From Alphaproteobacteria bacterium (GTDB taxonomy: Bacteria; Pseudomonadota; Alphaproteobacteria; ATCC43930; CGMCC-115725), in the NCBI GenBank assembly GCA_028871455.1, contig JAGWNF010000005.1, positions 1-64,000 of the forward strand: a stretch of 64,000 nt of DNA, in the 5' to 3' direction. This document shows, piece after piece, positions 4,599 to 9,492 of this stretch; position 1 is the stretch's first letter; the number at the start of each line of letters is the position of its first letter. The notes below the pieces were generated by a model. That model ran no database searches and was not told where the DNA came from. It worked only from the letters and a program-made list of their open reading frames with translations. Both the position numbers and the translations under genes were made by a program.

Positions 4599-5747
4599 TC
4601 AACCGCGCCAAGCTTTGAGCCGGCGGACCGCTTCGGCGACCACGGCCGGCGATCCGGCATAGCATAGCCGGAGCGTCGCGCGGCCGCGCCGCGGGTCGAA
4701 ATCCATGCCCGGCGTGAGCGCGATTCCGGTGTCGCGCAACAGTTGGCGGCAGAACTCCTCGCTGTCGTTGGTGCGATGCGCGACGTCGGCATAGAGATAG
4801 AACGCGCCATCCGACGGCGCGAGGCGATCGAAGCCCGCTGCTGGCAACTCGCGCAGCAACAGGGCGCGATTTTCCGCGTAGTGCGCGACATTGGCGTCAA
4901 GCTCGGTCCGGCATTCGAATGCCGCGATTGCTGCATACTGCGACAGTGCCGGCGGCGAGATGTAGAGGTTCTGTGCCAGGCATTCGATCGCGCGCGCCAG
5001 ATCGTCGGGCGCGACCATCCAGCCGATGCGCCAGCCGGTCATTGAGAAATATTTTGAGAAGCTGTTGACGACGATCGCCTGTGGATCGAAGGCCAGTGCC
5101 GTCGCGGCCGGTTCGTCGTAGGTGATGCCGTGATAGATCTCGTCCGAGATCAAGCGGATGCCGGCGGCCCGGCAATGGCGGACTATGGCCTTGAGCTCAG
5201 CCGGCGGAATCATCGTCCCCGTCGGATTGGCCGGGCTGGCGATGATCAATCCGTCGACGCCCCGCCCCTGTGTCCGCAGGCGCTCGAGAGTGATTTGATA
5301 CCGTTCCTCGACGCCGGCGGTGAGCTCGATGGGCACCAGGTCGAGCGCTGTCAGAATATTGCGATAGGCCGGATAGCCGGGAAACCCGATCGCTACTTTG
5401 TCGCCTGGATCGAACGCGGCGAGACAGGCGAGGATGAAACCCGCCGATGATCCGGTGGTCGCGACGACGCGTGATGGGTCGAGCGCTACGCCATAGCGGT
5501 TGCGGTAATGGGCGGCGATCGCCGTGCGCAGCGCCGGCACGCCGAGCGCATCGGTATAGCCGAGCACTTCGCGCTCAAGCGCGGCCCGCGCCGCCACGAT
5601 GACACCCTTCGGCGCCCCGGTCGATGGCTGGCCGACCTCGAGATGGAGCACGTCCTTACCGGTCGCGGCACGCGCGTTGGCGTCGCGCAGCACGTCCATC
5701 ACGATGAAGGGCGGTACGCGTCCCCGCGCCGACACTTTGAGAGTCAC
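4599..5747 (-). CDS. Pyridoxal-phosphate aminotransferase, class I/II
   Basis: 382-aa fold-type I aminotransferase of the aspartate/aromatic group; the exact amino donor cannot be read from sequence. The PLP lysine is Lys232 in SFSKYFSMTGWRIG. Asn174 (SPANPTG), Asp202 and Tyr205 (ISDEIYHG) are the usual cofactor contacts, and an Arg in RATLRLCYAG near residue 356 should hold the substrate carboxylate. Length is normal. It is convergent with rne (9 bp between stops). The IS1595 element lies about 100 bp upstream of its start and may have altered its promoter. It could act as a kynurenine, methionine or aspartate aminotransferase. Confidence 0.88.
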   Translation of the reverse strand: MTLKVSARGRVPPFIVMDVLRDANARAATGKDVLHLEVGQPSTGAPKGVIVAARAALEREVLGYTDALGVPALRTAIAAHYRNRYGVALDPSRVVATTGSSAGFILACLAAFDPGDKVAIGFPGYPAYRNILTALDLVPIELTAGVEERYQITLERLRTQGRGVDGLIIASPANPTGTMIPPAELKAIVRHCRAAGIRLISDEIYHGITYDEPAATALAFDPQAIVVNSFSKYFSMTGWRIGWMVAPDDLARAIECLAQNLYISPPALSQYAAIAAFECRTELDANVAHYAENRALLLRELPAAGFDRLAPSDGAFYLYADVAHRTNDSEEFCRQLLRDTGIALTPGMDFDPRRGRATLRLCYAGSPAVVAEAVRRLKAWRG

Positions 5748-5837
5748 AGCTGACTATCCCCAATTGGCTTTGTTTTGCGAATTTTAATGTTCGGCGGCAC
5801 GCGCCGCCTGTTGGCTTCCGATCTTTCACCTTGTACG

Positions 5838-5845
5838 TTGTTTAC
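5838..5845. repeat. Left copy of 8-bp target-site duplication of the IS
   Basis: The octamer ttgtttac occurs here and again at 7955-7962, directly outside the two inverted ends of the IS1595-type element. The direct repeat can be read as long as 12 bp (tacgttgtttac at 5834-5845 and 7951-7962). Aligning the inverted repeats places only 8 bp outside the element, which is the duplication size known for IS1595 elements. Confidence 0.85.
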
Positions 5846-5871
5846 CGGAATTATCACCTTGACATAGGTTC
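5846..5871 (+). repeat. Left terminal inverted repeat of IS1595 element
   Basis: Starts cggaattatcacc. Read inward it matches the reverse complement of 7929-7954 at 20 of the first 24 positions, with mismatches at positions 3, 13, 16 and 17. It contains the -35 hexamer of the transposase promoter. Confidence 0.85.
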
Positions 5872-5887
5872 ACGCAAGCCCTAGATT
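5859..5887 (+). promoter_or_regulatory. Transposase promoter starting within the left repeat
   Basis: A perfect TTGACA at 5859-5864, a 17-bp spacer and TAGATT at 5882-5887. Transcription should begin near 5894, about 18 bases before the transposase ATG. The -35 lies within the terminal repeat; the same place in the right repeat reads TTTGCA, so the right end lacks it. Confidence 0.7.
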
Positions 5888-5911
5888 AGAGCCAGAAAAC
5901 GGGGCTTTGCC

Positions 5912-6835
5912 ATGAATCTGACTGATCCGATCTTCACCGACGAACGCAAGGCGCGTGAGTTCCTTGAGGAAACCCGCTGGCCGAAAGGGCCGGTCTGCGT
6001 GCATTGCGGCTGCGTGGACAAGGTCTATCGGCTAGCCGATGGCGGCAAGCACCGCGACGGGCTGCTCCACTGCAACAACTGCGATGGCTCTTTCACGGTT
6101 ACGACCGGGACCGTGATGGAAAGCTCGCATATCCCGCTCAACAAGTGGGTGATCGCCTATCGGCTCATGGCATCGGCCAAGAAGGGGATTTCGGCGCACC
6201 AGCTTCATCGCACCATCGGCGTCAGTTACAAGACGGCGTGGTTTCTCTGCCATCGCATCCGCGAGTCCATGCGCGATGCCTCGGGCGGTCCTCTTGGCGG
6301 CTCGGGCAAGATCGTGGAAGCGGATGAAACTTACGTGGGCGGCAAGCCCCGCAAAGGACGCCCGCGCATGAGCCGCATGGACACGAAAACGCCGGTTGCG
6401 GTCCTGGTCGAGCGCAATGGCCGCGCCCGTGCCACGCCGGTCTCACATCCTCTCGCTGGCGTCCTAAAGCGCAACATCGCCGCAAACATCGCGCCCGGCA
6501 CTGAGATGCACACCGACGAACACAAGGGCTATCGCGGCGTGGCCAAGATTACGGGCGGTCCGCATCGCACGGTGAAGCATTACCAAGGCGAATACGCCCG
6601 CGATGGCGTTCATATCAATACCGTGGAAGCGTGGAACGCGCTTCTCAAGCGTTCGATCGTCGGTGCCTTCCACCACGTTTCGCCGGAACACTTGAGCCGC
6701 TACTGCGACGAGGTTTCGTTCCGTTGGGATCACCGCCATGTCGGTGACAGCGAGCGCACGATTGCCGCCATCAAGGGCGGCGAAGGCAAGCGGCTGACCT
6801 ATCGGCGGACTAGTGCGCAGTCGGCTCGCGCGTAA
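5912..6835 (+). CDS. IS1595-family transposase (zinc ribbon, ISXO2-like DDE)
   Basis: 307-aa transposase that cuts and joins the element ends. An N-terminal zinc ribbon uses Cys29, Cys32, Cys54 and Cys57. A helix-turn-helix-like stretch follows at about residues 85-115 (ISAHQLHRTIGVSYKTAW). The catalytic core has Asp138 (EADETYVGG), Asp202 (HTDEHKGY) and Asn236 with Glu239 (HINTVEAWNALLKR), the DD-N arrangement known in this family. The frame is intact and of usual length, so the enzyme is probably functional. The promoter lies in the left terminal repeat, and the start has only a weak GGGG element upstream. Confidence 0.95.
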   Translation: MNLTDPIFTDERKAREFLEETRWPKGPVCVHCGCVDKVYRLADGGKHRDGLLHCNNCDGSFTVTTGTVMESSHIPLNKWVIAYRLMASAKKGISAHQLHRTIGVSYKTAWFLCHRIRESMRDASGGPLGGSGKIVEADETYVGGKPRKGRPRMSRMDTKTPVAVLVERNGRARATPVSHPLAGVLKRNIAANIAPGTEMHTDEHKGYRGVAKITGGPHRTVKHYQGEYARDGVHINTVEAWNALLKRSIVGAFHHVSPEHLSRYCDEVSFRWDHRHVGDSERTIAAIKGGEGKRLTYRRTSAQSARA

Positions 6836-6858
6836 CGCCGCGACGCTGCGCCGTTTGC

Positions 6859-7026
6859 TTAGGATTTTCGAGAGCTTTTAGCGCGCTTCAGCATCTTGGC
6901 GCGCGGCGTCTTGCCCTCGAAAGCCTCACGGGGCTTATGCGGCGTTGTCAGCGCCCGCCGGATTGCTTCTTTGAAGCGCCGATCAGCTTCGGCCGGGCTG
7001 TATTCGTCTCGTGCTTTTTCGGCCAT
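6859..7026 (-). CDS. 55-residue cargo protein of the IS, antisense to the transposase
   Basis: A leftward ORF with ATG at 7026 and TAA at 6859-6861, inside the IS, 23 bp past the transposase stop and opposite in direction. The protein is highly charged and Lys/Arg-rich, with EYSPAEADRRFKEAIRRAL near the N-terminus and a basic tail ending RAKSSRKS. The predicted helical, basic character would suit nucleic acid or protein binding, but I recognise no family with a known function. Similar short ORFs appear to travel with some IS1595 transposases (recollection, not checked). It has no membrane segment or cysteine. Confidence is limited by its size. Confidence 0.55.
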   Translation of the reverse strand: MAEKARDEYSPAEADRRFKEAIRRALTTPHKPREAFEGKTPRAKMLKRAKSSRKS

Positions 7027-7067
7027 GCTCGATCCTAATTCAAATTACGAAATGGAGGAAATGGACA

Positions 7068-7238
7068 ATGTCTGACTCAACGGAGAGCAAAATCGGTCGC
7101 GTTATTATTGGTTATGGCTTCAAACTGGCCGTCATTTCGCTGCTGGTATTCATTGCCTATCAGCAATCCCAAATCGCAAAAGGGCTCGTTTGGGTCATGA
7201 ATGATGATGTGCCGGTCAGGATCATCAGCGGGCAATGA
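7068..7238 (+). CDS. 56-residue single-pass membrane cargo protein of the IS
   Basis: The ATG at 7068 has a strong GGAGG at 7054-7058, which favours it over an upstream in-frame TTG at 7011. The product has a short polar N-terminus, one hydrophobic helix at about residues 16-35 (LAVISLLVFIAYQQ region) and a short polar tail. No family is recognised. It is inside the IS, 42 bp from the start of the oppositely oriented 55-residue ORF, so the two starts are divergent. Its A/T-ending codons differ from the chromosomal genes. A possible role in element maintenance or host interaction is only inference. Confidence 0.55.
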   Translation: MSDSTESKIGRVIIGYGFKLAVISLLVFIAYQQSQIAKGLVWVMNDDVPVRIISGQ

Positions 7239-7330
7239 ACATGGAGCATGAGCGGCAGGGAACTGGATTCGCACTCAGTTTCCCCGCCGCTGTATCCTAG
7301 GAACTGCCAAGTAACCTAGGAGCGAAAAGC

Positions 7331-7591
7331 ATGAAGTTTTTGCTGTTCCACGCTATTCAGCCCGATTTCGTCGTAAGGGGTCAGCATGACTGGAAGTCTT
7401 TTTTGCGCGAGGCTGCGTTGCTAAATCTGCCAGAAGGCGGCGAAGCACTTGCTCCAAATATTTGGTTGCTTCCCGATCACACCGAGACGGAACGCGAGCT
7501 TGGGCGTCTGGGCCACCGGTGGGAGATCGCGACGCGGATTCGCGCATTTTCCGGCGCATCACCTTGGCAGCCTTTAAGTCCTGCGCCGTAA
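7331..7591 (+). CDS. 86-residue cargo protein of the IS, unknown function
   Basis: The ATG at 7331 follows AGGAGCGA at 7318-7325, a good ribosome binding site. The protein starts MKFLLFHAI and contains PEGGEALAPNIWLLP and RELGRLGHRW. It looks like a compact soluble protein with several Trp and no signal or membrane segment. I recognise no domain. It is the last rightward gene in the IS. The opposite strand over the same bases is also open (7353-7865) with a CPWCGGGF zinc-ribbon-like string, but lacks supporting signals, so I prefer this strand. Confidence 0.5.
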   Translation: MKFLLFHAIQPDFVVRGQHDWKSFLREAALLNLPEGGEALAPNIWLLPDHTETERELGRLGHRWEIATRIRAFSGASPWQPLSPAP

Positions 7592-7928
7592 ATCCGCCTC
7601 CGCACCACGGGCAAGCGAGAGGGACATTCTCGGCACTGGAGTGCTGAGCTTGGTCCTTGACCTCGAATCGAGTCTCGGTCTTCAAATGTGTGGCTTCGCT
7701 CGGTTGCGGATGAACGCTCAGCATGAGCCGGTAAGCCAGTCGCGAAGCTGGCGGACCTGAGCTACCAGGGTCCAGAGGCGTGAATCCGCCACGCTTCCTT
7801 TCAATCCGACAGCATCGCAACCGACGGTGGCCACTATGGGCACCGCTTGCGTACACTTCAAGCACAAAATCGCCACCTAGAAAAGTTGTAGAAAACGCCG
7901 GCCTGTCAATGGGATACTAGCCATTGAT

Positions 7929-7954
7929 GGACCTATGCAAAAGTGATAATTACG
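7929..7954 (-). repeat. Right terminal inverted repeat of IS1595 element
   Basis: Reading inward from 7954 it starts cgtaattatcact and matches the left repeat at 20 of the first 24 positions. The two adjacent mismatches at positions 16-17 remove the -35 hexamer present at the left end. Confidence 0.85.
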
Positions 7955-7962
7955 TTGTTTAC
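7955..7962. repeat. Right copy of 8-bp target-site duplication of the IS
   Basis: Octamer ttgtttac, identical to 5838-5845 on the other side of the element. Confidence 0.85.
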
Positions 7963-8142
7963 GTTCATGTCTCTCTTAAGCGTACACGGATTGAAAGTCA
8001 AGCATTTGAGGCTTGGTCTCGGGTTGGGAGCCCTGTCGCGGAGACCGCCGCGTACGGCAGCGGGGCGCATGCCGCAACCGTATTCGAATCGGCGGTTGAC
8101 GGTGGCCGTGCCGGCGTTTACGAGGGGAGCGGAGCCGTTCCG

Positions 8143-9492
8143 TTGCGCGCCAAGCTCGTTCTCAAGGTTGGTTGCCTGCTGCTGGCGATGGGCGTCGTGC
8201 TTGTCCGGCAGGCGGCCGCGCAAGACTCGCCGAATCTCATCCGCGACGTCGAAACCGAGACAATGCTCCGTACCTTCGAGATGCCGGTGTGGCGCGCCGC
8301 CGGTCTCGATCCCAATGCCCTGCACTTCTACATCGTCCAGGACCCGCAGCTGAACTCGTTCGTCGCCGGCGGCCAGAATATCTTCATGAATACCGGCACG
8401 ATCGAACGTGCGGACCGGCCCAACGAACTAGTCGGCATCATGGCGCACGAGACCGGCCACATTGCCGGCGGTCACCTCGCGCGTTTCGCGACCGAGATGC
8501 ACGACGCAACGATCAAGGCGATCATCGCCATGGTCGTGGGCGGCGCCGCGGCGCTCGCCGCGGGCCAGCCCGGCGGTGTTGGCGGCGCGATGGCGGGCGG
8601 CGAAGGCGTCGGCGAGCGCTCGTTCCTGTCCTTCTCGGTGGCGCAGGAAGGCGCCGCCGATCATGCCGCGCTCTCCTTCCTCGACGAGACCCATCAATCG
8701 TCCAAGGGACTCCTTGATTTCTTCAAGATCCTCGAGCCCGAGGAGCTGCTCTCGCCGGCGTACCAAGATCCCTATTTGCGCACTCATCCGCTGACTCAAG
8801 AACGTATCGAATACGTGCAGCAGCACGTGCTGGATTCGTCGTACACCAACAATCCCGATCCGCCGCAATGGATCGCGATGCTCGCGAACGTGAAGGCTAA
8901 GCTCCATGGCTTTCTCGACCCGCCTGCGCAGACGCTGGAGAAATATCCGGCCAACGACAAGTCGATTGCGGCGCGCTACGCCCGGGCCATCGCCTACTAC
9001 CGCATTCCCGAATTGGACAAGGCGCTCGCCGAGGTCGACAGCCTGATCCACGACGAGCCCAACAATCCCTATTTCTGGGAATTGAAGGGCCAAATGCTCT
9101 TCGAGAATGGGCACGTTGCCGAGGCCGTGGCACCCTATCAACGCGCCGTCGCCCTCAACAACGCGCCCCTGATGCGCGTCGAGTTGGCGCAGGTCGAGCT
9201 CGAAACCGGCGATCCTAAACTGCTGCCCAAGGCATTGGCTCAGCTTTCCGACGCCGTCAATTTCGAGCACGATAATCCCGACGCCTGGCATTTCCTGGCG
9301 ATCGCCTACGGCCGGAGCAACAACATCGGCATGGCGGCGCTCTGTCTCGCCGAGGAAGGGATGGCCAACGGCGACTACAAGACAGCAATCCAACAGGCGA
9401 CGCGCGCGCGCCAGATCCTACCGGCGGGACCGCAGCGCCAGCGCGCCGAGGACATCTACAGCGAAGCCAAACGAATTCAGAACGGCTCCTAA
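8143..9492 (+). CDS. Periplasmic M48 zinc metalloprotease with TPR repeats (BepA/YfgC-like)
   Basis: Secreted protease of the outer-membrane quality-control type. I place the start at TTG 8143: it has GGAG eight bases upstream and gives a clean signal peptide (hydrophobic run, then RQAAAQ). The frame itself extends to 7924, inside the IS. The zinc site is HETGH (His102, Glu103, His106) with Glu169 and Asp173 in QEGAADHAA. A Gly/Ala-rich loop separates the two. Residues about 290-440 form TPR-like helices (ALAEVDSLI, AVAPYQRAVALN, AIQQATRARQILP). Length (449 aa) is normal for BepA-like proteins. It is 18 bp from the next gene, a DsbA-like protein, suggesting an envelope stress or folding operon. 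Confidence 0.9.
   Translation: MRAKLVLKVGCLLLAMGVVLVRQAAAQDSPNLIRDVETETMLRTFEMPVWRAAGLDPNALHFYIVQDPQLNSFVAGGQNIFMNTGTIERADRPNELVGIMAHETGHIAGGHLARFATEMHDATIKAIIAMVVGGAAALAAGQPGGVGGAMAGGEGVGERSFLSFSVAQEGAADHAALSFLDETHQSSKGLLDFFKILEPEELLSPAYQDPYLRTHPLTQERIEYVQQHVLDSSYTNNPDPPQWIAMLANVKAKLHGFLDPPAQTLEKYPANDKSIAARYARAIAYYRIPELDKALAEVDSLIHDEPNNPYFWELKGQMLFENGHVAEAVAPYQRAVALNNAPLMRVELAQVELETGDPKLLPKALAQLSDAVNFEHDNPDAWHFLAIAYGRSNNIGMAALCLAEEGMANGDYKTAIQQATRARQILPAGPQRQRAEDIYSEAKRIQNGS

Follow-up and report, generated by a model that had tools for sequence, protein, structure and literature searches.

The window analysed here, positions 1 to 64,000 of contig JAGWNF010000005.1 of an alphaproteobacterial genome assembly (GCA_028871455.1; all window coordinates are given in that numbering), contains a complete, probably autonomous, passenger-carrying element of the IS1595 family with a small cargo module, a reading to which we assign a probability of about 0.93. 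The element occupies positions 5846-7954 (2109 bp) and carries a transposase gene, three small open reading frames (ORFs A, B and C) and a two-hairpin leader in front of ORF C (Table 1). It is probably a passenger-carrying insertion sequence of a known kind; the family of ORF A, which we call the companion, and the leader may be new.

Element boundaries and insertion site

A preliminary description, made from the sequence alone, had placed the ends at 5846 and 7954, and recomputation shows these coordinates to be right to the base: 20 of 24 positions are identical between 5846-5869 and the reverse complement of 7931-7954, and a repeat search extends the match to 27 nt (81%). The flanking octamers (5838-5845 and 7955-7962) both read TTGTTTAC without a mismatch, as described earlier, and the search for inverted ends directly flanked by an 8-bp duplication gave a single solution around the transposase. 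In 2000 dinucleotide-preserving shuffles of both flanking regions, ends matching at 16 of 20 positions together with a perfect octamer were never reached (best 14 of 20; 12 was reached in 61 shuffles). The octamers sit within a 12-nt direct repeat, TACGTTGTTTAC (5834-5845 and 7951-7962), which extends four nucleotides beyond the duplication; we regard the additional TACG as fortuitous, because its right-hand copy falls inside the end of the element. As to homologous copies with other boundaries, the left end is independently supported, since the best DNA match elsewhere (genome G020, 69%) starts exactly at 5846, and another (G067) starts at 5847. At the right boundary no homologous DNA was found in the DNA comparisons, and this boundary rests on the ends and the duplication.

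The insertion is intergenic: it separates a minus-strand aminotransferase gene, which starts at 5747, from a plus-strand gene for an M48 protease. The two form a divergent pair, so no gene appears to be broken. The empty-site allele suggested earlier as a check was recovered in part: two congeners (L080 in genome G002 and L079 in G003) keep the aminotransferase and M48 genes adjacent and show no match to the DNA of the element, the gap between the matching parts measuring ~0.2 kb (L080) or ~0.7 kb (L079), versus ~0.3 kb in the window after subtraction of the insert. The exact single octamer was not seen in L080 or L079, as their intergenic DNA is too diverged; the nearest sequence found by eye is ATTGTCTTC in L080. 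The aminotransferase-M48 gap of L079 (787-1502) is ~0.4 kb longer than that of the window without the insert.

The transposase and its family

The assignment to the IS1595 family, proposed before, holds: the transposase domain PF12762 (113.7 bits, cut-off 27, E = 1.1e-32) and the family model NF033547 (192.8 bits, cut-off 75, E = 6.7e-57) are matched above their curated cut-offs, as is the zinc ribbon PF12760 (42.2 bits, cut-off 25.4, E = 7.6e-11), and catalytic residues as well as inverted repeats with an 8-bp duplication are present. The transposase gene is intact (307 aa), and the zinc ribbon and the DD-N residues are indeed kept. The zinc-ribbon cysteines are C29, C32, C54 and C57; among 81 aligned relatives D138 and D202 are found in all, N236 in 77 and K246 in 75, and we take these four to be the catalytic positions of the DDNK-type motif. 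The probable promoter of the gene matches the consensus at 10 of 12 positions (one found, against a mean of 0.6 and a standard deviation of 0.9 in shuffled sequences); its TTGACA lies inside the left end, and TTGAC recurs at the same place in the ends of many relatives. In a tree of 50 transposases that of the window forms a lone branch with a length of 0.92. Seven divergent IS1595 transposase loci (36-50% protein identity) are present on contigs C20, C46, C12, C26 and C41 of the same genome; for four (L148, L156, L176 and L187) the ends of the surrounding element were detected.

Table 1. Features of the element and its target site in the window
Feature	Position	Strand	Basis or remark
Target duplication, left copy (TTGTTTAC)	5838-5845		
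Left terminal inverted repeat	5846-5869	+	20/24 against the right end; 81% over 27 nt when taken to 5872
Probable transposase promoter, TTGACA (5859-5864), 17 nt, TAGATT (5882-5887)	5859-5887	+	Consensus match only
IS1595-family transposase, 307 aa, zinc ribbon and DDN catalytic domain	5912-6835	+	PF12762, PF12760, NF033547, residues
ORF A, companion protein, 55 aa (TPHKP family)	6859-7026	-	Convergent with transposase; profile match; in 16 other end-defined elements
ORF B, 56 aa	7068-7238	+	Divergent from A; GGAGGA 8 nt before ATG; codon score best in own frame
Two-hairpin leader	7251-7333	+	Covariation, folding, recurrence; no Rfam match
ORF C, 86 aa, frame behind the leader	7331-7591	+	Starts 38 nt after TATCCT, as in other copies
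ORF antisense to C, 170 aa, probably not a gene	7353-7865	-	Codon score -0.18, little above its other frames
Right terminal inverted repeat	7931-7954	-	
Target duplication, right copy (TTGTTTAC)	7955-7962		

Comparison with other IS1595 elements

For comparison we assembled 107 IS1595 loci (46 from a GTDB contig collection, 60 stretches from relatives, and the window), a sample biased towards relatives of the window transposase and towards loci with enough flank. Matched ends together with an 8-bp duplication (at most two mismatches) were found in 54 of them; one (L149, weak ends and two mismatches) was dropped, leaving 53 end-defined elements, the window included, and 50 of these entered the transposase tree, the other three having a stop in the aligned span. 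Relatives carry the same type of ends. The duplications are perfect in 50 of the 53 and have an A/T content of 66%, versus 38% in the left flanks. The elements range from 1824 to 3968 bp, with the 2109 bp of the window on the short side, and none of the 53 is a bare transposase; every one holds at least 0.8 kb beyond it. The earlier statement that the element is longer than a transposase alone needs therefore stands as far as the presence of extra sequence is concerned, but the extra length is normal, all 53 compared elements exceeding 1.8 kb.

The insertion sequence ISApl4 resembles the window element in its IS1595 transposase, inverted ends (14 bp in ISApl4) and 8-bp duplication (PMC12561309); at 712 bp with a 654-bp transposase gene, however, it lacks the extra sequence of the 2109-bp window element. 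Further parallels are the elements termed tIS in passages of a second paper (PMC5704250), i.e. IS1595-family elements with passengers such as MTnSag1/tISSag10 and tISCpe8; they share with the window element the family of the transposase, and they are insertion sequences carrying passenger genes, as the window element probably is. MTnSag1 is mobilizable, its circular intermediate was observed in E. coli, and tISCpe8 is named in a title as a lincomycin resistance element, whereas no such gene was recognised in the window element; the passages mention neither a companion family nor a leader (PMC5704250). Among literature titles and the opening parts of abstracts we found none that deals with the companion family, with the leader or with IS1595 elements carrying defence genes, which is no proof of absence.

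A companion protein on the opposite strand

ORF A matches a profile built without the window row at 34.7 bits (best of 1000 shuffles: 9.8), and its cluster is found in 17 of the 53 end-defined elements, in all 17 on the strand opposite to the transposase. With a 13-row alignment of the A family we searched 385 genomes of the class and obtained 25 places in 22 genomes, 5 of which were already in the IS1595 set. An IS1595 transposase is present in the stretch at 13 of the other 20 places and at none of the remaining 7; in one of the 13 (L232) it lies 3.9 kb away and outside the element. Twelve of the 13 stretches were examined for ends: 7 have them, with A inside in 6. No match to ORF A was found on plasmids.

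Four further companion clusters occur in 13, 6, 2 and 2 elements, so that together with the A cluster 40 of the 53 elements carry a companion. We rejected the idea of one superfamily for the five clusters, as only A and the D cluster are related (hhalign probability 91%) and the other 9 of the 10 pairs are not. On the transposase tree the companion labels change 13 times, against a mean of 28 for shuffled labels (none of 200 as low), a figure to which near-copies contribute. In three clades the companion is constant and the large cargo varied: 12 Sphingomonadales elements with one companion carry 8 HEPN-like and 4 other cargo ORFs, 4 Mesorhizobium elements carry 2 DUF3800 and 2 other ones, and 2 Beijerinckiaceae elements differ from each other (1 and 1). 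Because the companion stays the same in these clades while the larger cargo changes, we tentatively read ORF A as part of the transposon core, possibly a small basic regulator, at somewhat less than even odds.

In L046 (4308-5088), L019 (4258-4957) and L013 (4352-5063) the companion and HEPN-like ORFs stand head to head. Their predicted starts touch or overlap, which leaves no space for an intervening promoter, but the choice of starts may be wrong.

Cargo of related elements

A HEPN-like ORF of 175-223 aa is found in 13 elements, 10 of them by a blastp cluster and three (L014, L021 and L022) added by eye. R-N is invariant in all nine aligned sequences and H is not present in all; the HEPN motif we take to be R-x(4-6)-H. 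A structural model of one such ORF (pLDDT 80.6) lists HEPN toxins at Z scores of 6-7 among other helical bundles, the top row not being a HEPN protein, and Foldseek gave no match to the model at E <= 0.001. The HEPN identity of this predicted cargo is suggestive only.

These ORFs bear on a second reading of ORF A, namely that it serves a toxin-like passenger as antitoxin or immunity partner, the elements being addiction or defence transposons. Of the 13 elements with the HEPN-like label 11 have ORF A, the model just described lists HEPN toxins, A and HEPN-like cargo occur together in L022, L166 and L202 away from the Sphingomonadales clade, and in L025 and L028 the PD-Lambda-5 genes are found together with a companion of the D cluster, which is related to A. 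Yet the Sphingomonadales clade keeps A in the 4 of its 12 elements that lack the HEPN-like label, the window has A and no recognisable toxin, and neither the Foldseek result nor the PADLOC counts given below favour such a partnership, which we consider unlikely, at roughly one chance in four.

For a broader view we compared the 96 longest non-overlapping cargo ORFs of at least 100 aa from the 53 elements with a control, a random sample of 96 out of 200 flank ORFs. The cargo matched 54 PADLOC families and the flank control 106, and we do not claim an enrichment of defence genes; the counts neither support nor exclude defence cargo, because PADLOC holds generic models. Pfam DUF3800 was found in 7 of the 96 cargo ORFs and is not among the 25 control families listed of 122; a local profile assigns DUF3800 to five elements. 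In L031, L038 and L039, contrast rows of two clades, no DUF3800 was found in the ORFs scanned (both in L031, two of three each in L038 and L039). The DUF3800 protein of L030 matches the candidate defence family PDC-M04A (2.2e-21), and L042 matches PDC-M24B (6.7e-10); for the DUF3800 proteins of L036 and L040, PADLOC gave no match at E <= 0.001. Both PD-Lambda-5 proteins, A and B, are recognised in L025 (E = 1.4e-124 and 1.8e-117) and L028 (7.6e-126 and 3.8e-118).

These elements (L025 and L028 with PD-Lambda-5, L030 with DUF3800/PDC-M04A) are of the same kind as that of the window and have matched ends, and the companion of L025 and L028 is related to ORF A; the PD-Lambda-5 or DUF3800/PDC-M04A genes, in contrast, are absent from the window element. 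The elements at L025:2910-6725 and L028:2925-6725 hold the PD-Lambda-5 pair and a small companion between their ends, with a duplication that is perfect in L025 and has one mismatch in L028. They indicate that a two-gene defence system fits into a transposon of less than 4 kb.

A probable two-hairpin leader in front of ORF C

The preliminary description does not include a leader block, to which we were led by a DNA match in the region separating ORFs B and C. It consists of hairpin 1 (7251-7291) and hairpin 2 (7295-7321), with a Shine-Dalgarno-like AGGAG (7318-7322) in the 3' arm of hairpin 2 and an ATG at 7331. Positions 7240-7335 fold at -38.3 kcal/mol (z = -3.69); 7298-7340, a piece that lacks part of hairpin 2, does not fold better than shuffled sequences (z = -0.23). 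Rfam 15 gave no match at the leader at E <= 1 when window positions 5000-9000 were scanned, and on L271, L257 and L152 two weak matches, neither at the leader. The hairpin before a start codon, with the ribosome site in the 3' arm, is like that of cis-regulatory leaders in Rfam; the lack of a match distinguishes the window leader from them.

A pattern derived from the copies in the window, G020 and G003 found four places in 116 genomes, those three and one in G024, and none in a reversed control; three of the four adjoin an IS1595 transposase, and the copy in G020 is separated from a contig end by 35 bases. The IS1595 loci contained one more copy (L192, in G025). The covariance model built from these five copies was run on 289 genomes of the class and 156 relatives (overlapping sets) and gave seven places, the five input copies plus G314 (E = 8.5e-9) and G031 (E = 2e-4). 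The G314 copy has an IS1595 transposase on its 5' side, in the same orientation, and that of G031 is on a 3-kb contig without a transposase, so that the leader stands beside an IS1595 transposase at 5 of the 7 genome places. In IMG/VR the leader is found in eight contigs (six distinct copies), of which two, representing one distinct copy, have a transposase; of the pattern variants used on viral contigs, two find the leader and the window-type variant none. On plasmids three partial matches were all that the L192 copy gave, and the L152 copy gave none. In the IMG/VR loci L268, L269, L270, L272, L273 and L274 the leader precedes small ORFs, with no IS1595 transposase in the DNA examined. We rejected the leader as a hallmark of IS1595: it is present in only 4 of the 107 loci (model R2 adds none at E below 0.08), and 6 of the 8 IMG/VR contigs are without a transposase.

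In an alignment of the 13 distinct copies, 86% of the pair cells are standard pairs and double changes occur in 9 of 16 pairs. Double-changed cells number 25, against 9.9 in shuffles (none of 500 as high), with slid controls far lower. The structure was derived from five of the 13 rows and then guided the alignment, and much of hairpin 2 was prescribed by the viral patterns; the cleanest test is therefore hairpin 1, which those patterns did not specify, in the six viral rows. It folds well in most of them, with z values of -4.9, -3.3, -2.4, -2.2, -1.7 and -0.6. In the rows found with the model they are -3.8 (L257) and +0.9 (L266). The proteins behind the leader are all different, with one exception: that of L266 is related to that of L268 (45%, E = 5e-19).

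In 12 of the 13 copies an ATG lies 37-40 nt after an invariant TATCCT, followed by a frame of at least 73 aa in nine. We consider it an even bet that the leader gates translation of the passenger ORF C by pairing the Shine-Dalgarno sequence into hairpin 2; this was lowered from slightly better odds because 4 of the 13 copies are without a good frame at the expected place. Alternatively, 7251-7333 might act as DNA, i.e. as a promoter or operator with TATCCT as the -10 box. The invariance of this -10-like hexamer, its nearly fixed distance to the ATG and the copies without a good frame would suit such a function, but no conserved -35 is visible by eye at the right distance, and the stretch where it should lie is hairpin 1, whose letters vary with the pairing kept, hairpin 2 covarying as well. 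A role as DNA hence seems rather improbable to us, though a shade less so than the antitoxin function of ORF A.

Proposed organization and points against it

For the RNA leader and the core companion the following course of events may be envisaged. By analogy with the family, the transposase would bind the ends of the element, a circular copy-out intermediate would be made, and insertion with an 8-bp stagger would follow, preferably into A/T-rich DNA; the transposase promoter would begin inside the left end. ORF A would act as a transposon-core companion and small basic regulator, ORF C as a passenger whose translation is controlled by the leader through its Shine-Dalgarno sequence paired into hairpin 2, and ORF B as another passenger. 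In a wider and still doubtful generalization, passenger-carrying IS1595 elements (best sampled in Alphaproteobacteria) would be compact shuttles made up of a core transposase with a dedicated companion and of cargo that can be exchanged and is often nuclease- or defence-like; in a subset, a new two-hairpin cis-regulatory RNA that pairs the ribosome site would serve as plug-in control of the cargo gene behind it. We lowered our estimate of this generalization slightly, to under one in three, because the tie between leader and IS1595 comes partly from copies drawn from IS1595 loci and because of the four copies without a good frame.

Several observations weigh against these readings. The empty site in the congeners is not base-exact, and the element is single-copy in its own 3.0-Mb assembly; in the absence of a second copy there is thus no direct sign of recent movement. 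No companion is recognised in 13 of the 53 elements, and A may travel with cargo, because A and HEPN-like ORFs co-occur in three distant transposase lineages (L022, L166 and L202). The coding statistics of ORF C are weak (codon score). The leader copies of the window, G003 and G025 were drawn from IS1595 loci, and of the scan-found copies in G024, G314 and G031 two of three are transposase-adjacent; the leader is rare among the IS1595 loci, as stated above, and in L266, L268-L270 and L272-L274 no transposase accompanies it within the stretches examined. The frame behind it is missing in L259 and short in L260 (13 aa), L257 (35 aa) and L258 (44 aa).

The companion family and the covarying leader make the element a variant worth following. 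If true, the companion protein would mark this transposon group even where the cargo is unrecognised, and the RNA-like leader without an Rfam match could be used to find further such genes; if both hold, the transport and expression of cargo by small transposons could be tested from two sides.

ORFs B and C and the remaining sequence

The preliminary description had counted three extra small ORFs. ORF A has homology support; B and C are without convincing relatives, though sequences resembling ribosome sites precede them, and no gene of known accessory function was recognised between the ends. ORF B has a hydrophobic stretch that by eye resembles one membrane helix; no relatives were found in family-profile scans or in the plasmid search (whole genomes were not searched for B). 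ORF C has no plasmid match at E <= 1 and two matches at E ~0.005 in 289 genomes, which we regard as chance. A guess that it is a Cas2/SinR-like protein was dropped; the single-sequence model (pLDDT 45.8) was not used, and there are no credible relatives. The antisense ORF of 170 aa has family matches below the cut-off only. A promoter scan found no consensus promoter for B or C.

The missing relatives of B and C and the poor codon scores of C and the antisense ORF would fit a plain IS1595 insertion in which the 1.1-kb half outside the transposase gene is neutral filler and holds no functional cargo. Against this stand the A family with its single orientation in 17 of the 53 elements, the covariation of the leader, and the at least 0.8 kb beyond the transposase in all 53; we regard neutral filler as the least probable of the alternatives considered. 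Apart from the companions, a second family of small minus-strand ORFs with an ITPEM-like motif adjoins the right end in L013, L019, L027, L174 and L194.

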